64,000 nt of DNA from Pirellula staleyi DSM 6068 (GTDB lineage: Bacteria; Planctomycetota; Planctomycetia; Pirellulales; Pirellulaceae): the NCBI GenBank assembly GCA_945875845.1, contig CAMCMB010000026.1, forward strand, positions 1-64,000, read 5' to 3'. Positions within the stretch are counted from its first letter, which is position 1; each line of letters opens with the position of its first letter. The notes under the pieces were generated by a model. The model had not been told where the DNA came from and made no database searches. It saw only the letters and a list, made by a program, of their open reading frames with translations. The translations under genes were made by a program, and so were the position numbers. This document shows, piece by piece, positions 21,612 to 33,450 of this stretch.

Positions 21612-21803
21612 AGTGTCTCTAGCATTGTCAAAACCTTGCAAAAAACAAGGGTAGAATTGGTTTCCGGCCGGTTTGGCTTCAAGGAATAGCTCCAATTTGC
21701 TATTCGTTCCAGCCGGAATTGAGTACATTCAGTGAGTGTTTCTCGCTCCGAATAATAGACAGCTGGGCATTCTCGAAAATCTTCACCAACCGAGCAAACG
21801 GAC

Positions 21804-23579
21804 ATGGCAGGAATTTCTCAAAAATTCACGTTCACATTTTTCGCTGGAGTTTCAAACAACGCTTGGCAACGAGCGGATGTTTCGAGGTCCATGTTGGGCG
21901 CCGCTTATGGGCTCTGGCTGATCCTTTGTGTTGGTTTTGTCGCCGCGGACGAACCTGCGGTCAAGACATCCGTCCGAAGGGACTCCAAGGGAGTAACACT
22001 TCCAAAACAAGTTGAGAAAATCGACCTGTCGATGTCTGCCAACTGGTCCGAGTTTGGTATCAAGCCATCACCTGTCGAGGAAGATCTAAAGTGGTGCAGG
22101 AGAGTGTTTCTGGACGTGATCGGTAGAATCCCCAGTTTTGAGGAGTTCTCTGAGTTCGCGAAGGACAAGGGGCCTGACAAGCGTTTTTCGCTCGTGAATC
22201 GGTTGATCAATGAGGATCGTTATACCGAGGAATATGCCAATAATTGGTCGACCGTTTGGACGAATGTTTTGATAGGGCGAAACGGTGGGATGGAAAACCG
22301 CAGTTTGACCAATCGGGAGGGGATGCAAAAGTATTTGCGTGACTGCTTCGCCCGCAACAAGCCTTATAATGAAATGGTTTTGGAGCTGGTGACTGCCTGC
22401 GGTGCGACGAAACCGGGTGCTGATGGTTTCAATGGTGCCACCAATTTTTTGGCGATGAAAGTTAATGAAGAAGAGGGCACTCAAGCGACAGCGGCTGTGT
22501 CGCGGATCTTTTTGGGACTTCAAGTGCAGTGCACACAATGTCATAACCATCCGTTCAATCAATGGAAGCAGCAAAAATTCTGGGAGTTTAACGCGTTCTT
22601 TCGACAGACCCGTGCTCTTAGAAGGTATGTGCCGGGCTCGGTCAATCGCGAGGTGGATCACATCGAACTGATCAACGAAGACTTTGCAGGCAAAGGCGCA
22701 AACGCAGAAAAAGCTGAGATCTACTACTCGCTCAGAAATGGGCTGACCAAAGTCGCTTACCCGGTATTTCTAGATGGTAAGGAGATTGACAAAAGCGGTT
22801 ATGTGAGTCAGGTCAATCGTCGCGACGAACTGGGCAAGCTCATGATGGAGAGTCCATTCTTGGACAAAGCCATTGTGAATCGAATGTGGGCTCATTTCTT
22901 GGGTTATGGATTCACCAAGCCAATTGACGATCTTGGGCCGCATAACCCCACTACCCAGCCGCAGTTGTTCGACGAGCTCGCGAGGGACTTCCGAGACACA
23001 AGTTACGACCTCAAGCAACTAATTGTTTGGATCACGATGTCTCAACCTTATCAGGTCACCTCGAAAATTACCAAAGACAACGCGTCCGATGAACCTTCTC
23101 TCGGGGATCCACCTAAGTTTTCGCACTTCTACACGCGTCAAATGGGGGCAGAGCAACTTTATCAGTCGCTTTCGGTAGCCACACAAGCCAACCGCAAAGG
23201 AAGCCTGGAGGAGCAACAGCGGCGACGCGAAGAATGGACGAAGCAGTTCGTCATCGCCTTCGGTACCGATGAAGGAGATGAGACAACCACGTTCAATGGT
23301 TCAATCCCACAAAGTCTGATGCTTTTCAACGGAGACTTGATAAAGGAAGCCATTTCGCTCGAAACAGGAAGTTGGTTGCATGGTCTAGCTCAGGCCAAAA
23401 CAACTCCCACTGACAAAATCCAGCATTTGTTCATTGCTGGTTTAGGCAGGCGGCCGAGACCAGAAGAAGTCAGCGTGGCCCAGCAGATATTGGTGAAAAG
23501 GAAAAATGAGGTAGGCGGGATGCTTCAGGATATGTGGTGGGCAATTTTGAATAGCAATGAATTCATTTTTAATCACTAG
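21804..23579 (+). CDS. PSD1-type protein with DUF1549 and DUF1553
   Basis: A 591-residue exported protein. An ATG at 21891 (MLGAAYGLWLILCVGFVAA) would give a cleaner signal peptide than the ATG at 21804. DUF1549 covers about 85-250, including FLDVIGRIPSFEEF and the motif CTQCHNHPF at 243-251, whose CxxCH resembles a heme c site. DUF1553 follows (NRMWAHFLGYGFTKPIDDLG, TMSQPYQ, then GLGRRPRPEE). Planctomycetes carry many DUF1549/DUF1553 plus DUF1501 pairs; their substrates are largely unknown. This gene opens a four-gene operon with a DUF1501 gene, an ECF sigma factor and a membrane regulator. Confidence 0.9.
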   Translation: MAGISQKFTFTFFAGVSNNAWQRADVSRSMLGAAYGLWLILCVGFVAADEPAVKTSVRRDSKGVTLPKQVEKIDLSMSANWSEFGIKPSPVEEDLKWCRRVFLDVIGRIPSFEEFSEFAKDKGPDKRFSLVNRLINEDRYTEEYANNWSTVWTNVLIGRNGGMENRSLTNREGMQKYLRDCFARNKPYNEMVLELVTACGATKPGADGFNGATNFLAMKVNEEEGTQATAAVSRIFLGLQVQCTQCHNHPFNQWKQQKFWEFNAFFRQTRALRRYVPGSVNREVDHIELINEDFAGKGANAEKAEIYYSLRNGLTKVAYPVFLDGKEIDKSGYVSQVNRRDELGKLMMESPFLDKAIVNRMWAHFLGYGFTKPIDDLGPHNPTTQPQLFDELARDFRDTSYDLKQLIVWITMSQPYQVTSKITKDNASDEPSLGDPPKFSHFYTRQMGAEQLYQSLSVATQANRKGSLEEQQRRREEWTKQFVIAFGTDEGDETTTFNGSIPQSLMLFNGDLIKEAISLETGSWLHGLAQAKTTPTDKIQHLFIAGLGRRPRPEEVSVAQQILVKRKNEVGGMLQDMWWAILNSNEFIFNH

Positions 23580-23653: not shown

Positions 23654-24928
23654 ATGTGGTCTCGATTTGCTCCACCGTCCGGCATGAATCGTCGGCATTT
23701 CATGAGTCACATGGCTGGTGCGGGTGCACTGCTAGGATCCTCAATGTCGCTGGGGCATTCGCTGCGAGTGCACGCGGATACTCTTAAGAAAAACCATAAG
23801 TCTTGCGTCATGCTTTGGATGGGTGGTGGCCCGTCCAGTATGGACATTTGGGACTTGAAGCCGGGAACCGATAACGGCGGTCCGTTTAAGGCCATTTCGA
23901 CATCGGGTGACATGCAAATCTGTGAGCATATGCCTCTGATGGCCAAGCAGATGCATCACATGAGCATCGTTCGGTCGATGAGCACACGCGAAGCGGACCA
24001 CAATCGGGGTCGATATTACATGCATACGGGCTATGTTCCGGATGCCAATGTGGATTACCCAAGCTACGGTGCCGTCTTGTCGCACGAACTCATGGCCCAA
24101 CGCTCCGGTCTTGATATTCCGCCCTTTGTGTCGGTTGGAGGTGCAAGCGAAGGACCTGGCTTCTTGGGAATGGCCTGGGCACCCTTCAATGTGTCGAGTA
24201 CCGGGCGTATCCGCAATATGGAGGCTAAGTTAGAAGGGGATCGACTCGCCCAAAGACGATTTGCTCTGGAAACGATTGAAAATTCGTTTATCGCTCAAAA
24301 GCGAGGAACGGTTCTGGAAGACCACCGCAAGGTGCTCGGTAAGACCTTTGATCTGCTAACCAGCGCTCAAATGGAGGCCTTTAATGTTGAGAAAGAGCCT
24401 GACGCCGAAAAAGAGAAATATGGTAAAAATGGGTTCGGACAAGGGTGCTTACTGGCTCGCCGACTCGTCGAAGCGGGCGTACCGTTCGTGGAAGTCGATT
24501 TGGGAGGCTGGGACAACCACACTGGAATTTTCCCAACGTTGCAGAATGACCGATTGCCGACCCTTGATAAAGCCATGAGCGCATTGGTGGCAGACCTTAG
24601 TGATCGTGGATTGTTGGAGGATACTGCGATTGTTTGGATGGGTGAATTTGCAAGAACACCACGTATCAATGCAGAAGGGGGACGCGACCACTGGGCGAGA
24701 GCTTGGAGTGTCGTTGTAGGGGGAGCAGGAATCAAAGGGGGCAAAGCGATTGGAGCTACCGACGAGGATGGAATGCAGGTTGTTACGGAGCCGTATTCCT
24801 CTGAGGATTTGATGGCATCGGTTTGCCATGGGTTAGGAATTTCTCTGGAAACTACGTTTACCAGCCGAAATGGTCGTCCAATGAAAATAGCCAATAGTGG
24901 CAAGATTATCAAAGATCTTTTCGGGTAA
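23654..24928 (+). CDS. DUF1501 family protein with Tat signal
   Basis: A 424-residue DUF1501 protein, the normal partner of the upstream PSD1 gene. The start MWSRFAPPSGMNRRHFMSHM carries a twin-arginine leader (NRRHFM), so the folded protein is exported. Typical blocks are MLWMGGGPSSMDIWDLKP, GEFARTPRIN and GRDHWARAWSVVVGGAGI. The ATG is preceded by AAGGA at good spacing. The gene sits 74 bp after the PSD1 gene, and its end overlaps or nearly touches the ECF sigma gene. Role is likely in extracytoplasmic metabolism, substrate unknown. Confidence 0.92.
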   Translation: MWSRFAPPSGMNRRHFMSHMAGAGALLGSSMSLGHSLRVHADTLKKNHKSCVMLWMGGGPSSMDIWDLKPGTDNGGPFKAISTSGDMQICEHMPLMAKQMHHMSIVRSMSTREADHNRGRYYMHTGYVPDANVDYPSYGAVLSHELMAQRSGLDIPPFVSVGGASEGPGFLGMAWAPFNVSSTGRIRNMEAKLEGDRLAQRRFALETIENSFIAQKRGTVLEDHRKVLGKTFDLLTSAQMEAFNVEKEPDAEKEKYGKNGFGQGCLLARRLVEAGVPFVEVDLGGWDNHTGIFPTLQNDRLPTLDKAMSALVADLSDRGLLEDTAIVWMGEFARTPRINAEGGRDHWARAWSVVVGGAGIKGGKAIGATDEDGMQVVTEPYSSEDLMASVCHGLGISLETTFTSRNGRPMKIANSGKIIKDLFG

Positions 24929-25472
24929 CGAGTTGACCGCACACCCTGTTTCATCGCCCACGCCTGATATGAGCTGGGATGCTTCCGTATTGATTACGAA
25001 TCATCAGGCCGGTGTATGGAGGTACTTGCGTTCTATTGGCTGCGATCACGCCCTCGCAGACGATTTAACGCAAGAAACATTCGTCGCAGTTTTGCGGAAG
25101 CCATTTGTTCAAGTCAGTCCAGCCGCCACCTCCAGCTATTTGAGACGCGTTGCATATCACTTGCTCGTTACGTTTAGACGACGACAAAAAAAAGTCGTGA
25201 TCACGAGCGAAATGGACCAGCTAGACTTGCAGTGGATGCGCTGGGCTGGCACGGATGGAGATGGGGCGGAACTGACAGAGGCGCTTGAGGATTGCTTTCG
25301 TCGTTTGACGACTCGAGCGCAGTTGTCTTTGAAGATGCGTTTCGGAGAGAACGCGACGCGAGAATTGATCGCAAAAGAACTCGGCATTACGGAGCACGGT
25401 GCCAAAAACCTGATGCAACGAGCCAAAATGCAACTTAAACAGTGTTTAGACGGAAAACTGAATCGTGATTGA
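24897..25472 (+). CDS. ECF-type RNA polymerase sigma factor
   Basis: A sigma-70 family protein of 191 residues from a GTG at 24897, or 167 from the ATG at 24969 (MSWDASVLITNHQAG). Region 2 includes VWRYLRSIGCDHALADDLTQETFVAV and the following YLRRVAYHLL helix; region 4 covers LSLKMRFGE..TRELIAKELGITEHGAKNLMQRAK, a helix-turn-helix that reads the -35 element. Region 3 is missing, as expected for ECF factors. It directs RNA polymerase to a small regulon, possibly including this operon. The next gene starts 8 bp before the sigma stop codon and encodes a single-pass membrane protein that is probably its regulator. Confidence 0.92.
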   Translation: MARLSKIFSGNELTAHPVSSPTPDMSWDASVLITNHQAGVWRYLRSIGCDHALADDLTQETFVAVLRKPFVQVSPAATSSYLRRVAYHLLVTFRRRQKKVVITSEMDQLDLQWMRWAGTDGDGAELTEALEDCFRRLTTRAQLSLKMRFGENATRELIAKELGITEHGAKNLMQRAKMQLKQCLDGKLNRD

Positions 25473-27768
25473 TCGAGATAGAGACAGTTCGAAAGAACAA
25501 CCGACTTTTGAACCCGCAGAAATCCTTTTGTCTAACTTGCTCAATGATGTCGTTTGCGAACAAAGTCCGCCAGAGTTAACCAACAGAATTGTCTCGCAAT
25601 TCAATCGAGTCACTGCGTGCGAGTCTGCTTCCGCAACGACCAGCAAGTCCGCATCAATGCAAGATTTGTCAGGAGGTTTGTTCTCGCTTGCTGAGTATGA
25701 CCAAGCGGTGGCATTTGCCGAAAGCGAGATTGCCAGAGGCTACGGATGGACGGTTCCTCTCGCAGCTGAGAATGCAAAAGGTAGAAGTCAGCTCGCGGAG
25801 AAGAAACTGAGTGTTTGGATCCAGCGGGGCACAATGCTCGTTGCGGTACTCGCGGCATGTGTACTGGCTGTGCTGTTGATTCCACCGGGATTTGAAACCA
25901 AGCCGACCATTGAACCTCGGATCAATGACATTGCTGACTCGCGATTGGATCAATCGCAACGAGTGGACCAAACCGTTCCGCCACAAGTTGCCAGCCAGCC
26001 CGATTCCGTGGCGGTGATAACGGCTGCTCCAGATTCCATCGAAAAACCCTTTTCAAACGAAAGGCAGCTTGCTATCGTCCCCGACAATCGCGTTGATAAC
26101 GCAATTAAACCTCCGAACTCGCCCATGGTTGTTGCAAACAATCATGGACCTAGTTCGCCCACGAAACAAATGTCAGACAACGATATAATCGGTATCATTG
26201 ATGATCAATTAAAACTCCTTTGGGAACGAGTTGGCGTGACGCCGCAACCGAGTATTAAGACCGAACTTTGGTTGGAACGATCCTCGCTGGCTATTGTCGG
26301 ACGACTCCCAACGGCTGCCGAGAAAGAAGCATTTCGCAGTAACAAAAATGGCAGTCGCAACGTTGAGTACGTGGATAAGCTTCTAGCGAGTCAGGAGTTT
26401 TCAAAGCGATGGTCCGAAATAGTAGCAGGGCACTATCTTGGAAAGGGAGTCGAAGGTATCCGTTCTCAGCCCGGACCTCAGCTTTCCTTTGTGAAATGGA
26501 TTGCAGACTCGCTGTCGAATAAAGTCTTTGTCGGAGACATCGAGCGCGAGATGATTTCCGGCCCAAACTCAGCTGCTACGTCGGAGAGTCCATTGCTCCG
26601 AACCGATCCCGCGGCCTTTTGGCTTGCGGATATTCTAGAGCGTTCCGAGGTTGACCACCGCGAATCGTCTGAGCATCTCTCCAAGAAGCCGCTTGAGCAA
26701 AAGAACGTTGGATTAGTGGCAGCGGCGCGGCAAACGATGCGAATCGCTGGAAGCGCGTCGATGGTTTGTTCGCAATGTCATGATGGCGAATCTCGCAAGG
26801 GCGACTTTGATGACTATCTGGCCGCCACGCAATCGATTCGTGGTCAGGATTCCTTTTGGAAAGTCCCTGCAAGTCTGTCTGGCATATCTCTCGACCGCCG
26901 AGTTGCGGGCGTACGACCTTTGAAAGTCGTGAAGTCTTCCGAGTATTTTTTTGAAGATGCGGAAGGACGCTTGAAGCTGTCTGTAGCTGGCCCCCCGATC
27001 CAAATCAATGGAACTACGGCGAGAAGTACGCTGGCGGATTGGTTCCGATCATCGGTAGAACCAAGACGAGCTATGGTGGAGTTGGTCTGGAATGAGGTTT
27101 TCAAGCAACCTTTGGTTCCCGTTTTTGGTTTAACGGAAGAGGAAGGCAACAACGACCGTGCGGATTTGCGATACTTCCTGGCTAGTCAAATGCAAACCGG
27201 CGAGAGAGACTTGGGAGCACTCCTACGATGGATGGTTTTGTCGAGCGCATTTCGTCTTGATGGACAAAAAATGGATTCGCCTTGGTATCTAAAAGCAACC
27301 TCGGAACAGATTGCCGAAGCGCAAAAACAGACAAGGCTTTTCGCAAGTTTATTTTCGTCCGAATCGTCGATACGTGAATCCAAATGGAATTCCATCAATG
27401 AGATTGCAAATTGGGTCAAAGCGAATCGCTCTTACGAATTGAACAATCAAGCGTTAGCACAGGGGGCGATAAGCCCGACTTCGCAGAGCAGCCTGTCACA
27501 GACCAGTAAGCCAAATTACAGCGAAGCCCAAGTCCGGTTCTTGGTCTCATTGTCGAAACCGTATCGAAAAGTTTCCGACGTCGCTAATCGATTGGCCGCT
27601 AGCCAAATGTCTTGGCCCATGCTTCTCGAGCATGCCTATCTCGTCAGTGATTCGCGTTTTCCGACTCAAGGCGAACGGGATGAATCCGAGAAACTATTCC
27701 AAGCCGTTGAACAAGATCGAGCAAAGGCATTGGTCATGATTATCAACTCAAAGCTCGGTTCCAATTGA
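25465..27768 (+). CDS. Membrane regulator-like protein: cytoplasmic N-terminus, one TM helix, PSD1-type extracytoplasmic region
   Basis: A 767-residue protein starting with GTG inside the sigma-factor gene. Residues 1-115 are soluble and helical, in the position of an anti-sigma domain (EILLSNLLNDVVCEQSPPEL). One membrane helix follows at about 122-141 (GTMLVAVLAACVLAVLLIPP). After a linker, residues 237-440 resemble DUF1549, with SSLAIVGRLPTAAEKEAF and KLLASQEFSKRWSEIV. A CSQCH motif lies at 435-439, and DUF1553-like sequence (ELVWNEVFKQPLVPVFGL) comes later. This suggests a sensor that ties an ECF factor to an envelope redox or substrate signal. The family blocks are seen in sequence; the anti-sigma role is inference from position and topology. 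Confidence 0.75.
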   Translation: MIDRDRDSSKEQPTFEPAEILLSNLLNDVVCEQSPPELTNRIVSQFNRVTACESASATTSKSASMQDLSGGLFSLAEYDQAVAFAESEIARGYGWTVPLAAENAKGRSQLAEKKLSVWIQRGTMLVAVLAACVLAVLLIPPGFETKPTIEPRINDIADSRLDQSQRVDQTVPPQVASQPDSVAVITAAPDSIEKPFSNERQLAIVPDNRVDNAIKPPNSPMVVANNHGPSSPTKQMSDNDIIGIIDDQLKLLWERVGVTPQPSIKTELWLERSSLAIVGRLPTAAEKEAFRSNKNGSRNVEYVDKLLASQEFSKRWSEIVAGHYLGKGVEGIRSQPGPQLSFVKWIADSLSNKVFVGDIEREMISGPNSAATSESPLLRTDPAAFWLADILERSEVDHRESSEHLSKKPLEQKNVGLVAAARQTMRIAGSASMVCSQCHDGESRKGDFDDYLAATQSIRGQDSFWKVPASLSGISLDRRVAGVRPLKVVKSSEYFFEDAEGRLKLSVAGPPIQINGTTARSTLADWFRSSVEPRRAMVELVWNEVFKQPLVPVFGLTEEEGNNDRADLRYFLASQMQTGERDLGALLRWMVLSSAFRLDGQKMDSPWYLKATSEQIAEAQKQTRLFASLFSSESSIRESKWNSINEIANWVKANRSYELNNQALAQGAISPTSQSSLSQTSKPNYSEAQVRFLVSLSKPYRKVSDVANRLAASQMSWPMLLEHAYLVSDSRFPTQGERDESEKLFQAVEQDRAKALVMIINSKLGSN

Positions 27769-27790: not shown

Positions 27791-27875
27791 TCGGGAGGGT
27801 GAGGCTCCTGCCGAACCATTGCGTGGTAAGCTCGGCAGGAGCCTCGCCCTCCCGATGGATTTTTCAATTCGATGT
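27791..27875. terminator. Hairpin repeat with T-rich flank, likely terminator between convergent genes
   Basis: Arms CGGGAGGGTGAGGCTCCTGC and its complement (one G-T wobble) form a stem of about 23 bp; the loop contains a small ACCA/TGGT pair. GATGGATTTTTC follows on the plus strand, so this can end the sigma operon. The downstream gene is convergent. The same hairpin recurs at 58058-58121, so it is also a dispersed repeat. Confidence 0.65.
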
Positions 27876-28636: not shown

Positions 28637-30112
28637 CTAAGCTAAAATCTCTGGAATGATCTTCCCTTCGACGTTGGTCAGTCTACGTTGAATACCGTTA
28701 TGTTCGAAACTCAGTCTTTCGAAATCAAGGCCAAGGAGATGGAGGATGGTTGCGTTGAAATGGTAAAGGGGATGGATATCTTGAACCGCTCTTTGGCCTA
28801 AATCATCGGTTGCACCATGACTCACGCCGGGCTTCACTCCCGCGCCAGTCATCCAGCAGGTGAAACCGTCTGGATTGTGATCGCGGCCTTTCGATCCTTT
28901 CTGAAAAAAAGGCATGCGTCCGAACTCGGTACACCAAACCACAAGGGTGTCCTGCAACAAGCCCCGTTGCTTTAGATCCTGGATCAAAGCGGCTGCGGGT
29001 TGATCGAGGATTTGTGCATGGATGTCGTATTGCTCTTGGATCGCGTTATGTCCATCCCAATTGAGCACGCCCCCACTCGCATAGGCGCCATTGAATAGTT
29101 GCACAAACCGCACACCTCGTTCGATGAGGCGACGAGCAAGGATGCAGTTTTTGGCGAACGCGGCCTTGTTTGCGTTTTGTGTATCGTCCGCGCCGTACAT
29201 TTTCAGAATATGGTCGGATTCAGTGCTAAGATCGCTGATCTCGGGCACGCTGAGTTGCATCCGAGCGGCGAGTTCATAGCTTGCGATTCGGGCGGCCAGC
29301 TTGCCATCTCCTGGATGTTGTTCGAGATGCCGAGCATTCATCTTTTGAAGCAATGAACGCGATGCAACATCGGCGGGCGATGCGATGCCGGGCGCGATGA
29401 GGTGACGCACAGGTTCCTTGGAACTCAGCGTGGTCCCTTGAAAAGCGGCGGGCAAAAAACCGGGCCCCCAATTGTTGGACCCGTTCTGAGGAACCCCCCG
29501 CGGGTCGGGAATCGCAACGTAAGAAGGCAAGTTCTGATTCTCGCTCCCCAGTGCATACGTTACCCAAGAGCCAAGACTTGGGAAACCATCAAGAACAAAG
29601 CCCGTCGACAGAAAATTCTCGGCTGGCCCATGTGTGTTCGAGGTACTGGTGAGCGAATGAACAAAGGCGATGTCGTCGGTAAGTTCCGCCAGATGCGGGA
29701 TCAAGTCACTCACCCATTTACCGGTCTGGCCGCGCTGATGGAAATTGTATTGCGGTCGAGCCAAGTTGCCTGCGGGACCTTGAAAAGTAACGGATGGTCC
29801 ACCCGGCAGGGGCTTGTCATCCCATTTGATCAGTTCCGGTTTGTAATCCCATGTTTCTAACTGACTGACAGCCCCGGCGCAAAAAATGACCACCACGTTT
29901 TTCGCTTTGCCAGGGAAATGTGGCTGCCTGGCAGCATAGGGTTGGGCGGGATCAATCTTAGGTTGGTCGCTCGAATCCACAAGTAGTCCGTCTGCTCGCA
30001 GCATATTGGCTAACGCAATCGAGCCGATCGCAGTCGCGCTGTTCGAGAGAAACTGCTGGCGATTGAGCATGCCGCCGCCGAGGAGTGAGCCTTTTCCCGA
30101 TTTTGAACTCAT
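28637..30112 (-). CDS. DUF1501 family protein
   Basis: A 491-residue DUF1501 protein. The N terminus [20 protein letters not shown] resembles a Tat leader in which the RR pair has become RQ, so export may be less strict or use another route. Family blocks include [51 protein letters not shown] and the final [19 protein letters not shown]. It starts within the stop codon of the PSD1 gene upstream (ATGA at 30109-30112), so the two are translationally coupled and presumably work together on an unknown extracytoplasmic substrate. Confidence 0.92.
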
Positions 30113-33100
30113 GGCAGAAACAAGGCCTCATTGCAGTTGAAAAGAGCTCGGCCAAAGGTCTCCAGTCCGAACTCGCGAACCACGGACTCCGCTTCTTGAA
30201 GCTCGTCGATGCTTGGCTCGCGACTCAGCGCCAAACGATAGGCATGCTGGATTTGATTCTCGAGATCGTCGCCAGCTTCACGCTTCAAGCGTTTCGCGAG
30301 GGCTTGGGATTGCTCAAGTGTAAAGACGCTGTTAAACAAATTGAGTGCTTGGATGGGTGTCGTGGATTCCCGACGAATCGCGGTGCTTTGCCCCGCATCA
30401 GGGCAATCAAAAGCCCCGAAGATCGCTTCGGTCTCGCGGCGAACCTTGTGAGCGTAGATCATGCGGCGAAGTCCCTCGCCGCGAAAAGACTCTATGGGCT
30501 TGTAGCCACTCAGCCCACCCCGTTTGTCAAATAAATCGTAGCCTCGTCCAAACATTTTGAGGTTGAGTTGCCCGCTGATGGCCAGCATCGAGTCGCGAAT
30601 AGTTTCCGCGTCGATCCGACGCGATGGATATCGCCATAGCAAACGGACATCGGCGTCTTTTTCAGCCCCGAGCGGATTCACTGCCGAACTCTGCCGGTAC
30701 GTTCGTGACAATACGATGAGACGATGCATGGCTTTCATCGACCATCCGGTTCGTATGAACTCAGAGGACAACCAATCCAGCAGTTCCGGATGTGAAGGCT
30801 GCATTCCATTATTGCCAAAGTCGCTCGGCGTTGGCACGATTCCAACTCCAAAATGCCCCTGCCAGATCCGATTCACCATCACTCGTGCCGTCAACGGATT
30901 CTCTGGACTTGCTATCCAATTTGCAAGAACAAGGCGGCGTTCCTGCTCAGCGGAATCCTTGTTGAGCGCAACGTCACCCAATGCTCTGAGCACTGCAGGA
31001 ATAACCTCTTCTCGTGGTTGCTCCGGGTCGCCACGGCTGAGCAAATGGATTTTGTCCGGTTTGCGAAACGTACCGGCAAAGACTTTTTGTCCATTCTCTG
31101 CGGTTTTGATCTTTGCCTCCAAATCCCTTTTCTCGTCCAGTAACCGCGTGGCTGTCGCGGCTTCTTCCCGTGAGAGACCTACGGTGGTAAAGTTTCGGCC
31201 GCGATCCGTACCAGCGATCCAGGGAAAACGATCCGTGGAATCCGCCACCAATTGCCAGTTTGCCTCTGTGCCCGTTGCGATATCGATTTTGTATTCCGTC
31301 GCGAGGCGATCTTCGAACTTTCCTTCCCGATCTCGACTCCAGACGACGCGAGAAACCTCTTGTTCTGACGGGAATTCAAGTTCCACCCAGCCTTTGCCCG
31401 TCTCATTGGAAAGCCAGCTTTGGGAGTTGCCAACCAAGCCATCATGGACAAAACGTGGCTCGTGTCGATCCGCGACATTCGTGTCGCCAGAGGTTTTGAC
31501 GCGAGTGCCGAAACTCGAGAGGGCAACGTTTTGTCCCTGTGCATTGTAGACTTCGAGTTCATCCAGACAGGGTTCGAGCCCGTTTGTTGCTTGAATTGTA
31601 AATCGCAGGCGTTTCGCAGTCACCGCTAAAAACCGATCCGTGTTCTTGCGAGGACTTACGGACGGACGTCGCGGCAATACCTGCGAGAGAACGGTCAAAT
31701 TCTGCTCGGCTGTCCCTGCCTCCAGTGTGAAGACGGTTGCCAAGCGGTCGTCGAACTGTTCCTTGCGATCCCTGCTCCAAACGACCCTACCGATACGAGT
31801 GGCTGCCGGCAATTCCAACATCAACCACCCGCTCCCCTTTGCATCAGACATCCAGCTACTCGCGTTGCCATAAATTCCGTCGTTGAGATGCTCCGGCTTG
31901 TGGTTGGTCGAGATGTTGCTGCCAGAGACCGTGACCTTGGTGCCATGAACGGCCAAGGCAATGTTTCGCGGTTGCGGTTCGTCGGTAAAGATCTCAAACT
32001 CGTCGATACAAGGCTCGATCAGGCCGAGCGACGGATGGACGCTTGAATCATGGATCGAGAATCGGATCCATTTTGCTTCGATCGAGGGAAAGGTTTCAAT
32101 GTTCTTGCCTGCGCTGGTGGCAGTCGATTTCGTATTTGGCCGTGCGACGGACACAAAGCTGTTGAGTTGCTCATCGATCTCCGCAACGCGAACTCGCATC
32201 GGTGTAGCTGATTGTTTGAGCGCTTCAGCCGCCGGTGTCCGCAACTCACGGTCCTCATATTCTACGCCCGACACGAACGCTTGCATCGAGTAATAGTCCA
32301 TCGCACTGATCGGATCAAATTTGTGATCGTGGCAACGAGCACAGCCAATGCTCAGGCCGAGGAAAGTCTGGCCAATGTTATTGACAATCTCATCAATGGA
32401 ATCCTGGCGGGCGAGTCGAATGGATGGAGCGTCCTTGCCGATTTGCCCAGACAACAGGACCGAAGCAGTAACAAGAAACCCAGTGGCTGCATCCTCACCC
32501 GAGTGGTCACCTGCGATTTGTTCTTGAATGAACCGGTCGTAAGGTTTGTCCTCATTGAATGCACGGATGACGTAATCGCGATAAGGCCAAGCGTTTGGGC
32601 GCTCAGTGTTGACCTCGAATCCGTGCGTGTCCGCGTAGCGAACGATATCAAGCCAAAACTGAGCCCAGCGCTCGCCGTAACGCGGTGATTGAAGAAGTAC
32701 ATCGACGGCGCGCTCAAACGCACCGCTTTCTGTGTCACCAACAAAGGCTTGAGCTTCCTCCGGAGTGGGTGGCAGACCGGTAAGGTCGAACGTGACGCGA
32801 CGAAGCCAAGAGACACGATCCGCTTCTGGAGACATCGCCAATCCATTTATCTCCAATTTCTTTTGGATGAACGAATCGATCGTGTGGATTCCTTCTGGAG
32901 CCGCGATCGGCTTAAAGCTCCAATGATCCCGAATGTTTTTCAACAGTGCGACATCCACTCCGTCTGGCCAAAGAGCCCCTTCGTCAATCCATTGAATCAG
33001 CGTTTGGATCTCTTTTGTGTTCAATGCATCGCCTTCAGGTGGCATGCGATCCTCTTGGTCCTTGCTTGTGACCAACCGAATCAGTGGACTATCGGCTGAC

Positions 33101-33324
33101 TTTCCCGGCAAGAAACATTCACCGTAGCCATCGCCCCCTCGGAACGCGGCTTGCTTCACATCCAGTCGGAGACCAGACTTCTGCTTCTTGTCGCCGTGAC
33201 ACTCGTAGCAGTGCTTTTGAAAAATGGGACGTACGTCTCGGACAAAATCGATGGTTTGGGCGCGGAGCCTGGGCGCATAGGAAAACGCAAGCAGCAGGCA
33301 GGTGATTCTGGCGTAGCATTGCAT
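30109..33324 (-). CDS. PSD1 protein: cytochrome-type PSCyt1, DUF1549, two discoidin-like modules, DUF1553
   Basis: From the ATG at 33324 the protein has 1071 residues with signal peptide [17 protein letters not shown]; an ATG at 33363 adds 13 residues. A planctomycete cytochrome-type domain follows, with CYECHG and the distal RMPPEGD. DUF1549 comes next, with [12 protein letters not shown] and a second CxxCH in [14 protein letters not shown]. Two similar modules (about 435-560 and 580-705) each carry a SGWLMLEL or KGWVELEF strand and VVWSRDR; these look like F5/8-type C (discoidin) carbohydrate-binding folds. DUF1553 closes the protein ([33 protein letters not shown]). The two CxxCH motifs suggest c-type heme, and the discoidin pair suggests contact with a polysaccharide. 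It is coupled to the downstream DUF1501 gene. Confidence 0.92.
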
Positions 33325-33450
33325 TGTGTAGTGGAAACGAGATGACACGGAAAACAAACGCAAGAGAGGGTGTGGAGGAAGGGATGCGCTGGCCCTTTAT
33401 CTTACACTCATTTGGGCATCCTTGCGCTGTTTCCATAAACCGGACGCTAG

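Follow-up and report, generated by a model that had tools for sequence, protein, structure and literature searches.

A putative ECF sigma factor circuit in Pirellula staleyi whose predicted membrane sensor seems to derive from a duplicated DUF1549/DUF1553 operon protein

Gene Content and Conservation of the Locus

The stretch of DNA analysed here, which we refer to as the window, comprises 64,000 nucleotides of Pirellula staleyi DSM 6068 (assembly GCA_945875845.1, contig CAMCMB010000026.1, positions 1 to 64,000 of the forward strand). It contains four successive genes on the plus strand, encoding in this order a PSD1 protein, a DUF1501 protein, an extracytoplasmic function (ECF) sigma factor and a fusion protein (25465–27768), in which a head, one membrane helix and a linker precede a DUF1549/DUF1553 ectodomain and which is predicted to be an anti-sigma sensor. 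The PSD1 protein (21804–23579, 591 aa), a conserved putative enzyme, carries the domains DUF1549 and DUF1553 (PF07583, 159 bits, and PF07587, 91 bits, in a Pfam scan) together with the motif CTQCH, and it shows 54–91% identity, mostly near 60%, to 65 relatives. The DUF1501 protein (23654–24928, 424 aa; PF07394, 344.7 bits) has a twin-arginine-like N-terminus, the RR motif of which was read directly.

The third gene was described in the initial annotation as an ECF sigma factor, and its open reading frame (ORF; 24897–25472) indeed scored over the Pfam cut-offs for sigma regions 2 and 4 (Sigma70_r2, 39.1 bits; r4, 27.9; r4_2, 26.8). As regions 2 and 4 alone (PF04542 and PF04545/PF08281) exceeded their cut-offs and region 3 fell below, the protein has the make-up of an ECF sigma factor; its score against TIGR02989 was 70.4 bits, below the cut-off of 124.55. 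The start of the gene is a separate matter. The longest ORF begins with GTG at 24897, but this start is doubtful because in an alignment of 24 sigma factors the starts of many relatives fall on the column of TTG 24933, which is probably the true start (24933–25472); the gene would then be separated from that for the DUF1501 protein by a gap of 4 bp in place of an overlap. A search of the organism's own genome with this sigma factor gave one strong match, the next lying at E 1.6e-6.

The order PSD1-DUF1501-sigma-fusion was kept in all 22 of the genus-mate loci examined (26 genus-mates were searched), in agreement with the initial placement of the fusion gene as the fourth gene of the operon. 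In these loci a stop divides one of the fusions, and a few others extend beyond the ends of their contigs. A broader sample comprised 80 named loci whose PSD1 operon proteins are the closest. The sigma gene was present in 72 of these and was adjoined by a fusion gene in 68, the other four lying at contig ends without a visible fusion. The DUF1501 gene was located by script immediately 5' of the sigma gene in 66 of the 68 fusion loci; of the two exceptions, L241 overlaps more than the script allowed and L289 was not resolved. Eight named loci lack a sigma gene; in six of them the sequence stops no more than 1.8 kb from the PSD1 gene, whereas in L267 and L306 it extends further.

The four genes differ in their rates of change: in comparison with locus L041 the identity is 80% for the PSD1 protein, 88% for the DUF1501 protein, 71% for the sigma factor and only 41% for the fusion. 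The ratio of nonsynonymous to synonymous substitution rates (dN/dS), determined against two near relatives, was 0.25–0.26 for the fusion and 0.17–0.18 for its ectodomain, compared with 0.08–0.09 for the operon protein. These values do not suggest that the fusion gene is decaying.

Topology and Predicted Structure of the Fusion Protein

The fusion ORF encodes 767 aa and overlaps the sigma ORF (24897–25472) by 8 bp, as had been noted earlier. Its head (residues 15–57, 25507–25635; profile A3) has the consensus D..L..LL.E.L.G..PPDL..RIL and is followed by a membrane helix at residues 115–140 approximately (25807–25884), which is indicated by hydropathy and charge asymmetry and corresponds to a helix at residues 109–136 in the AlphaFold model. 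The hydropathy profile contains a single hydrophobic helix, starting near residue 122. A low-complexity linker (residues 141–233, 25885–26163) connects the helix to the ectodomain (residues 234–766, 26164–27765), within which lies the motif CSQCH (C435, C438 and H439; 26767–26781). A helix was found by hydropathy in 66 of 68 fusions, 65 of them having exactly one, and the net charge around it in these 66 proteins averaged +2.7 on the head side and −0.7 outside; the head side was the more positive one in 56 of the 66.

The initial annotation had proposed a layout of head, one helix and a DUF1549/DUF1553-like outside part containing CSQCH. The layout, the motif and DUF1549 (residues 245–455, 60.8 bits against a cut-off of 29.8) are borne out, whereas DUF1553 (residues 520–625) reached only 23.5 bits and stayed under its cut-off of 28.5; at E 0.1 this domain was matched in 13 of 20 members of the fusion family. 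A profile alignment, however, matched residues 234–766 to a fused PSD1 protein that is almost intact, with a probability of 99.8%, and as this alignment spans the whole PSD1 protein the ectodomain is best described as a diverged full-length paralogue of it.

The AlphaFold model of the fusion has a mean predicted local distance difference test (pLDDT) score of 74.9, compared with 82.7 for the operon protein. The ectodomain is mostly confident, the linker is disordered over residues 142–227 (pLDDT under 50), and the head is weaker, its predicted helices at residues 16–29, 38–57 and 74–89 having low to middling confidence. When the models of the fusion and the operon protein are compared by eye, their helices and strands follow the same order; among solved structures no clear match to either model was found.

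Association of the Head with the Sigma Factor

To describe the distribution of the head, a profile of 36 residues, built from genes adjoining sigma genes, was searched over 296 whole genomes of the order at a cut-off of E 1e-4, with at most 26 candidates scored per genome. It matched 82 places in 81 genomes, and every one of these 82 matches lies just 3' of this sigma gene and on the same strand, at a distance of 416 bp or less (median 40.5 bp). All 81 genomes fall among the 102 that possess the sigma factor, and the profile had no match at this cut-off in the 194 genomes that lack it. In the organism's own genome the only significant match was the fusion gene, with no other under E 0.09. The predicted anti-sigma protein is thus conserved directly beside its cognate sigma factor, both in these 82 matches and in the 68 of 72 named sigma loci described above.

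Outside the genus of the window, the head was seen at E 1 in 38 of 43 sigma partners. The partners in these 43 loci are of two kinds, as 28 have a PSD ectodomain or lie in its operon context (L205, the sequence of which is cut after the membrane helix, is counted here) and 15 have another ectodomain. All ten of the latter that were scanned carry vWF_A/VWA/YfbK_C domains. These proteins share the head with the fusion and accompany a related sister ECF sigma factor, but their ectodomain is unrelated. The head and sigma factor therefore remain constant where the outside part is exchanged, the behaviour expected of an anti-sigma factor, and the anti-sigma-like character first suggested for the head is supported by this exchange as well as by its restriction to places beside the sigma gene. 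The sister group (L193, L220, and L222–L234), in which the same head is paired with the other ectodomain, is an uncharacterised sensor system in its own right.

The known single-helix partners of ECF sigma factors with such a layout are mostly inhibitors, and we infer that the fusion likewise inhibits rather than activates. Association, which is what the sequences give, carries no sign, and the fusion could instead be a positive partner of the sigma factor, such as a membrane co-activator or delivery protein, but in view of the usual role of such partners we regard this as quite unlikely.

Divergence of the Ectodomain and Retention of CxxCH

In 27 operon proteins, 143 residues were found to be fixed, and this operon-invariant set was used to follow the divergence of the fused copies. 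Besides the four-gene form, which predominates among the loci seen in the window's family, there is an intact kind of fusion, in which the head is joined to a nearly intact PSD1 protein that is either flanked by the sigma and DUF1501 genes or stands alone. The order sigma, head-PSD1, DUF1501 occurs in several families (L062, L100, L101, L103, L105, L206, and L219), and six families besides that of the window have a fusion of the head to an almost intact PSD1 protein. The intact-kind fusions (n = 14) retain a median of 123 of the 143 residues, compared with a median of 36 for the four-gene fusions (n = 75; range from 128 in L111 to 18) and 39 for the fusion in the window. The 75 four-gene fusions are not independent, as some species are duplicated among them (e.g., L111/L299, L196/L257, L207/L259, L210/L303, and L211/L277).

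These intermediate forms raise the possibility of a trigger enzyme, i.e., that the ectodomain still performs the PSD1 reaction and frees the sigma factor according to turnover. The fused PSD1 proteins in the six other families retain 119–140 of the 143 invariant residues, and such a form may hence be the older state. The fusion in the window, however, retains only 39, has a DUF1553 part under the Pfam cut-off, and lies in an operon where an intact copy is encoded two genes before the sigma gene; moreover, the PSD1 proteins are themselves only putative enzymes. For the window we therefore consider a trigger enzyme unlikely. The relatives appear to display several stages in which an enzyme-like protein turned into a sensor, and the proposal that the enzyme-like family of the operon was recruited as an outside sensor is strengthened by this stepwise divergence of the fused copy with CxxCH staying in place.

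Against the general loss of fixed residues (the median one is retained at a frequency of 0.21), the C, C and H of CxxCH are each retained in 74 of the 75 four-gene fusions and are each present in 61 of 62 aligned ones; other well-retained residues are Trp542 (0.99) and Leu572 (0.96). The near-invariant sensor positions in the 62-row alignment include W253, R272, C435, C438, H439, W542, Q666, and H723. The last of these (27631–27633) is found in 61 of the 62 sensors but in only 7 of the 14 intact-kind fused proteins and 5 of the 27 operon proteins. A gained His723 together with a retained CxxCH would fit a second ligand of a heme, which we offer as a suggestion only.

Alternatively, the ectodomain may sense a ligand or metal, with CxxCH serving as a disulfide or metal site rather than binding heme c. 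No Pfam cytochrome family matches the fusion in the window, among solved structures no relative displaying the site was found, and the proposed circuit does not rely on the cofactor. CxxCH with its histidine belongs, however, to the best conserved parts of the sensors, as would be expected of a covalent heme site. We regard this alternative, which concerns the signal only and is compatible with the rest of the proposed circuit, as a real possibility whose chances are somewhat below even.

A tree of 58 PSD domains, with long and unstable branches, requires three changes for the operon group and three and six for the two fused groups, so that a single origin of the fusion and several origins are both compatible with it.

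The Operon Promoter as Predicted Target of the Sigma Factor

A predicted ECF promoter is located on the plus strand at 21720–21747, with the −35 element TGAGTAC at 21720–21726 and the −10 element CGCT at 21744–21747, and it ends 57 bp 5' of the PSD1 start codon. A two-part motif is over-represented 5' of the PSD1 gene, a loose expression of it being matched in 47 of 80 regions (the window and 79 named loci) compared with an overall frequency in these sequences of 0.02 per region. Outside the genus, 19 of 37 PSD-kind loci also have the form TG(A/G)GTAC-N15-18-CG(C/T)T in front of the sigma gene, starting 30–42 bp before the ORF start in 14 of these; it was found there in none of the 22 genus loci, where the sigma gene follows that for the DUF1501 protein without room, and TG(A/G)GTAC was likewise found before the sigma gene in none of the 15 loci with a non-PSD ectodomain. 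In nine loci (L062, L100, L103, L192, L201, L206, L216, L217, and L221) the motif starts 30–36 bp before the sigma start codon, which suggests that the message would be nearly leaderless.

A matrix was constructed exclusively from sigma-gene promoters of other genera (15 sites), and its threshold was set at the 99th percentile of the scores from 531 random windows; L237 was too short to be scored. The promoter in the window scored 22.9. Sites over the threshold precede the PSD1 operon in all 23 loci of the window's genus, in 29 of the 49 other named sigma-bearing loci (47 of them usable), in 5 of 10 where the sigma gene lies elsewhere in the genome, and in none of 36 sigma-less genomes (12 families, 13 loci coming from one family). 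None of 131 coding windows used as a control passed, the top score being 14.2 against the threshold of 15.2. The difference between 52 of 72 sigma-bearing and 0 of 36 sigma-less loci has a Fisher p of 1e-14, a value that overstates independence because the species are related.

The strict motif, defined by its form in the window's genus, has a single occurrence in the organism's own genome, at 21720–21747, and no site besides that at 21720 was found in the window. In eight genomes of the genus, including this one, it had nine matches compared with two for the reversed control, and seven of the nine are operon promoters. Thus the operon, which had been put forward as the target of the sigma factor, is supported in that role by a promoter that follows the presence of the sigma factor. 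With regard to possible further members of the regulon, the genome has 24 copies of the loose motif compared with 30 of its reversed control; as the motif is no commoner than the control, further targets can be neither claimed nor excluded. A motif enumeration for the genus alone was set aside, since it was dominated by near-identical species.

An ECF sigma factor with other targets might also have come to lie beside a PSD1 pair by chance, as planctomycetes are rich in ECF sigma factors (37 in Rhodopirellula baltica; PMC2754498) and DUF1549 has 75 matches, 74 of them over the cut-off, in the 7.0-Mb genome. The conserved gene order and the distribution of the promoter speak strongly against this, and we consider it highly improbable.

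Proposed Mechanism

The gene order, the one-to-one link between sigma factor and head, the exchangeable ectodomain, the stepwise divergence with CxxCH kept and the sigma-following promoter can all be read from the sequences. They make it likely, in our estimation, that the locus is a dedicated system of an ECF sigma factor and a membrane anti-sigma factor, controlling its own operon via sensing by the ectodomain. In such a system the short cytoplasmic head would hold the sigma factor at the membrane, while the ectodomain, a reworked PSD1 copy with CxxCH, would sense an outside condition connected with what the PSD1 and DUF1501 proteins do. We infer the mode of release, the signal and the heme, and candidate signals may include a substrate, a product, or the redox state of a cofactor bound to CxxCH. 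Upon the signal, the sigma factor would be freed and the four genes would be transcribed from 21720–21747, raising the operon proteins, the sigma factor and its own inhibitor in a closed loop.

Several observations weigh against this interpretation. At E 1e-4, 21 of the 102 sigma genomes had no head match, so that the head is not always recognisable; even at E 1 the profile misses 5 of the 43 partners and 18 of the 68 named fusions, including some from the window's own genus. No Pfam anti-sigma family matched the head at E 0.1 in 20 members, which does not exclude such a fold, and the head had no sequence match among solved structures. The dN/dS within the head is high (0.66–0.93 over 46 codons), in one metagenome assembly a stop codon disrupts the fusion gene (L054:4030-6529; a broken gene or an assembly error), and CxxCH is absent from the fusion of one genome (L053:2091-4391, the same as L252:7297-9597). 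Concerning the promoter, matrix sites were present in three of eight loci with no sigma gene seen and in one of five genomes with only the sister sigma factor. Both boxes are perfect in only 8 of the 23 genus promoters, the other 15 having a perfect −35 element and a −10 element one base off. Additionally, 20 of the 49 other named loci were under the threshold, 18 of them usable (in L261 and L281 the contig begins inside the PSD1 gene); 11 sub-threshold loci carry TGGGTAC or CGGGTAC variants, and the Stieleria-like L309–L311 have no recognisable site. Two of the nine strict-motif matches in the genus fall within ORFs, and one of the eight genomes lacks a match.

The CxxCH-less fusion of L053/L252 is the sole one among those longer than 600 aa, and it provides a natural test of the role of the motif.

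A more specific scheme can be put forward tentatively, with the chances leaning against it as a whole: a new short anti-sigma class (the PPDL head) with interchangeable ectodomains may have captured a duplicated DUF1549/DUF1553 protein, the copy of which lost most operon-fixed residues, kept its c-type heme site, perhaps gained a His723 ligand, and became the redox sensor of a one-operon ECF circuit regulating its source protein.

Comparison with Known Systems

BlaR1 has a sensor domain related to the enzyme that its operon makes, as is proposed here for the fusion, but it acts through a protease-repressor pathway with no sigma factor. The closest working precedent is RsgI6 with its GH10 ectodomain. 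In the RsgI6/SigI6 pair of Clostridium thermocellum, a membrane anti-sigma factor bears a GH10 ectodomain, which has very little catalytic activity and is thought to be a sensor; SigI1, a member of that set, drives both its own promoter and that of an enzyme gene (PMC4711584). Both RsgI6 and the fusion have an N-terminal cytoplasmic part and an ectodomain from an enzyme family. They differ in the sigma family and in the head, and also in that DUF1549/DUF1553 with CxxCH takes the place of the sugar-binding GH10; binding of the sigma factor by the N-terminal part has been shown in vitro for RsgI6 and is a prediction for the head in the window. Neither the RsgI N-terminal domain nor the FecR domain was among the Pfam matches of the fusion family at E 0.1, and as no RsgI domain matched, the fusion lies outside the RsgI family.

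The class I and II anti-sigma factors (RseA, RsiW, and CnrY) resemble the fusion in their adjacent genes, cytoplasmic head and variable extra domains, and the class II CnrY head is short with two helices (PMC7406223), a form that is tentatively predicted for the conserved part of the head in the window as well; the latter differs in matching no Pfam anti-sigma model. In R. baltica, the ECF sigma factor RB10049 has been suggested to regulate the PSD1/PSCyt2 protein RB10051 (Studholme 2004, as cited in PMC2754498), and RB10049 rises under heat, cold and salt stress (PMC2754498). An anti-sigma head, a sensor role, a promoter and paralogy with an operon protein do not figure in the parts of that account bearing on this pair, which may or may not represent the same locus. 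A description of the fusion was not found in the open-licence PMC literature, where PMC2754498 alone was listed for these DUF families, and an earlier one elsewhere is possible.

Neighbouring Sequences

Directly after the fusion gene there is an inverted repeat with arms at 27792–27814 and 27832–27854. The genome contains 34 copies of its right arm, CGGCAGGAGCCTCGCCCTCCCG, and none of the reversed control; the repeat is a dispersed palindrome and perhaps the operon terminator. Further downstream, at 28637–33363 on the minus strand and convergent with the operon, lie a gene for a second, larger PSD1-type protein (DUF1549 match at 32260–32880) and an adjoining ORF that likely encodes a DUF1501 protein.

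Biological Significance

The DUF1549, DUF1553, and DUF1501 proteins are heavily expanded in planctomycetes, and we know of no function for them. A dedicated sensor that descends from one of them, linked to a predicted promoter and perhaps to a single target operon, would provide a direct handle on these proteins, as finding what frees the sigma factor may lead to the family's substrate or redox partner. The PPDL head, of which to our knowledge there is no description as an anti-sigma domain, is a candidate for a new class of such domains. In this locus, a duplicated operon protein seems to have become the sensor of its own control.

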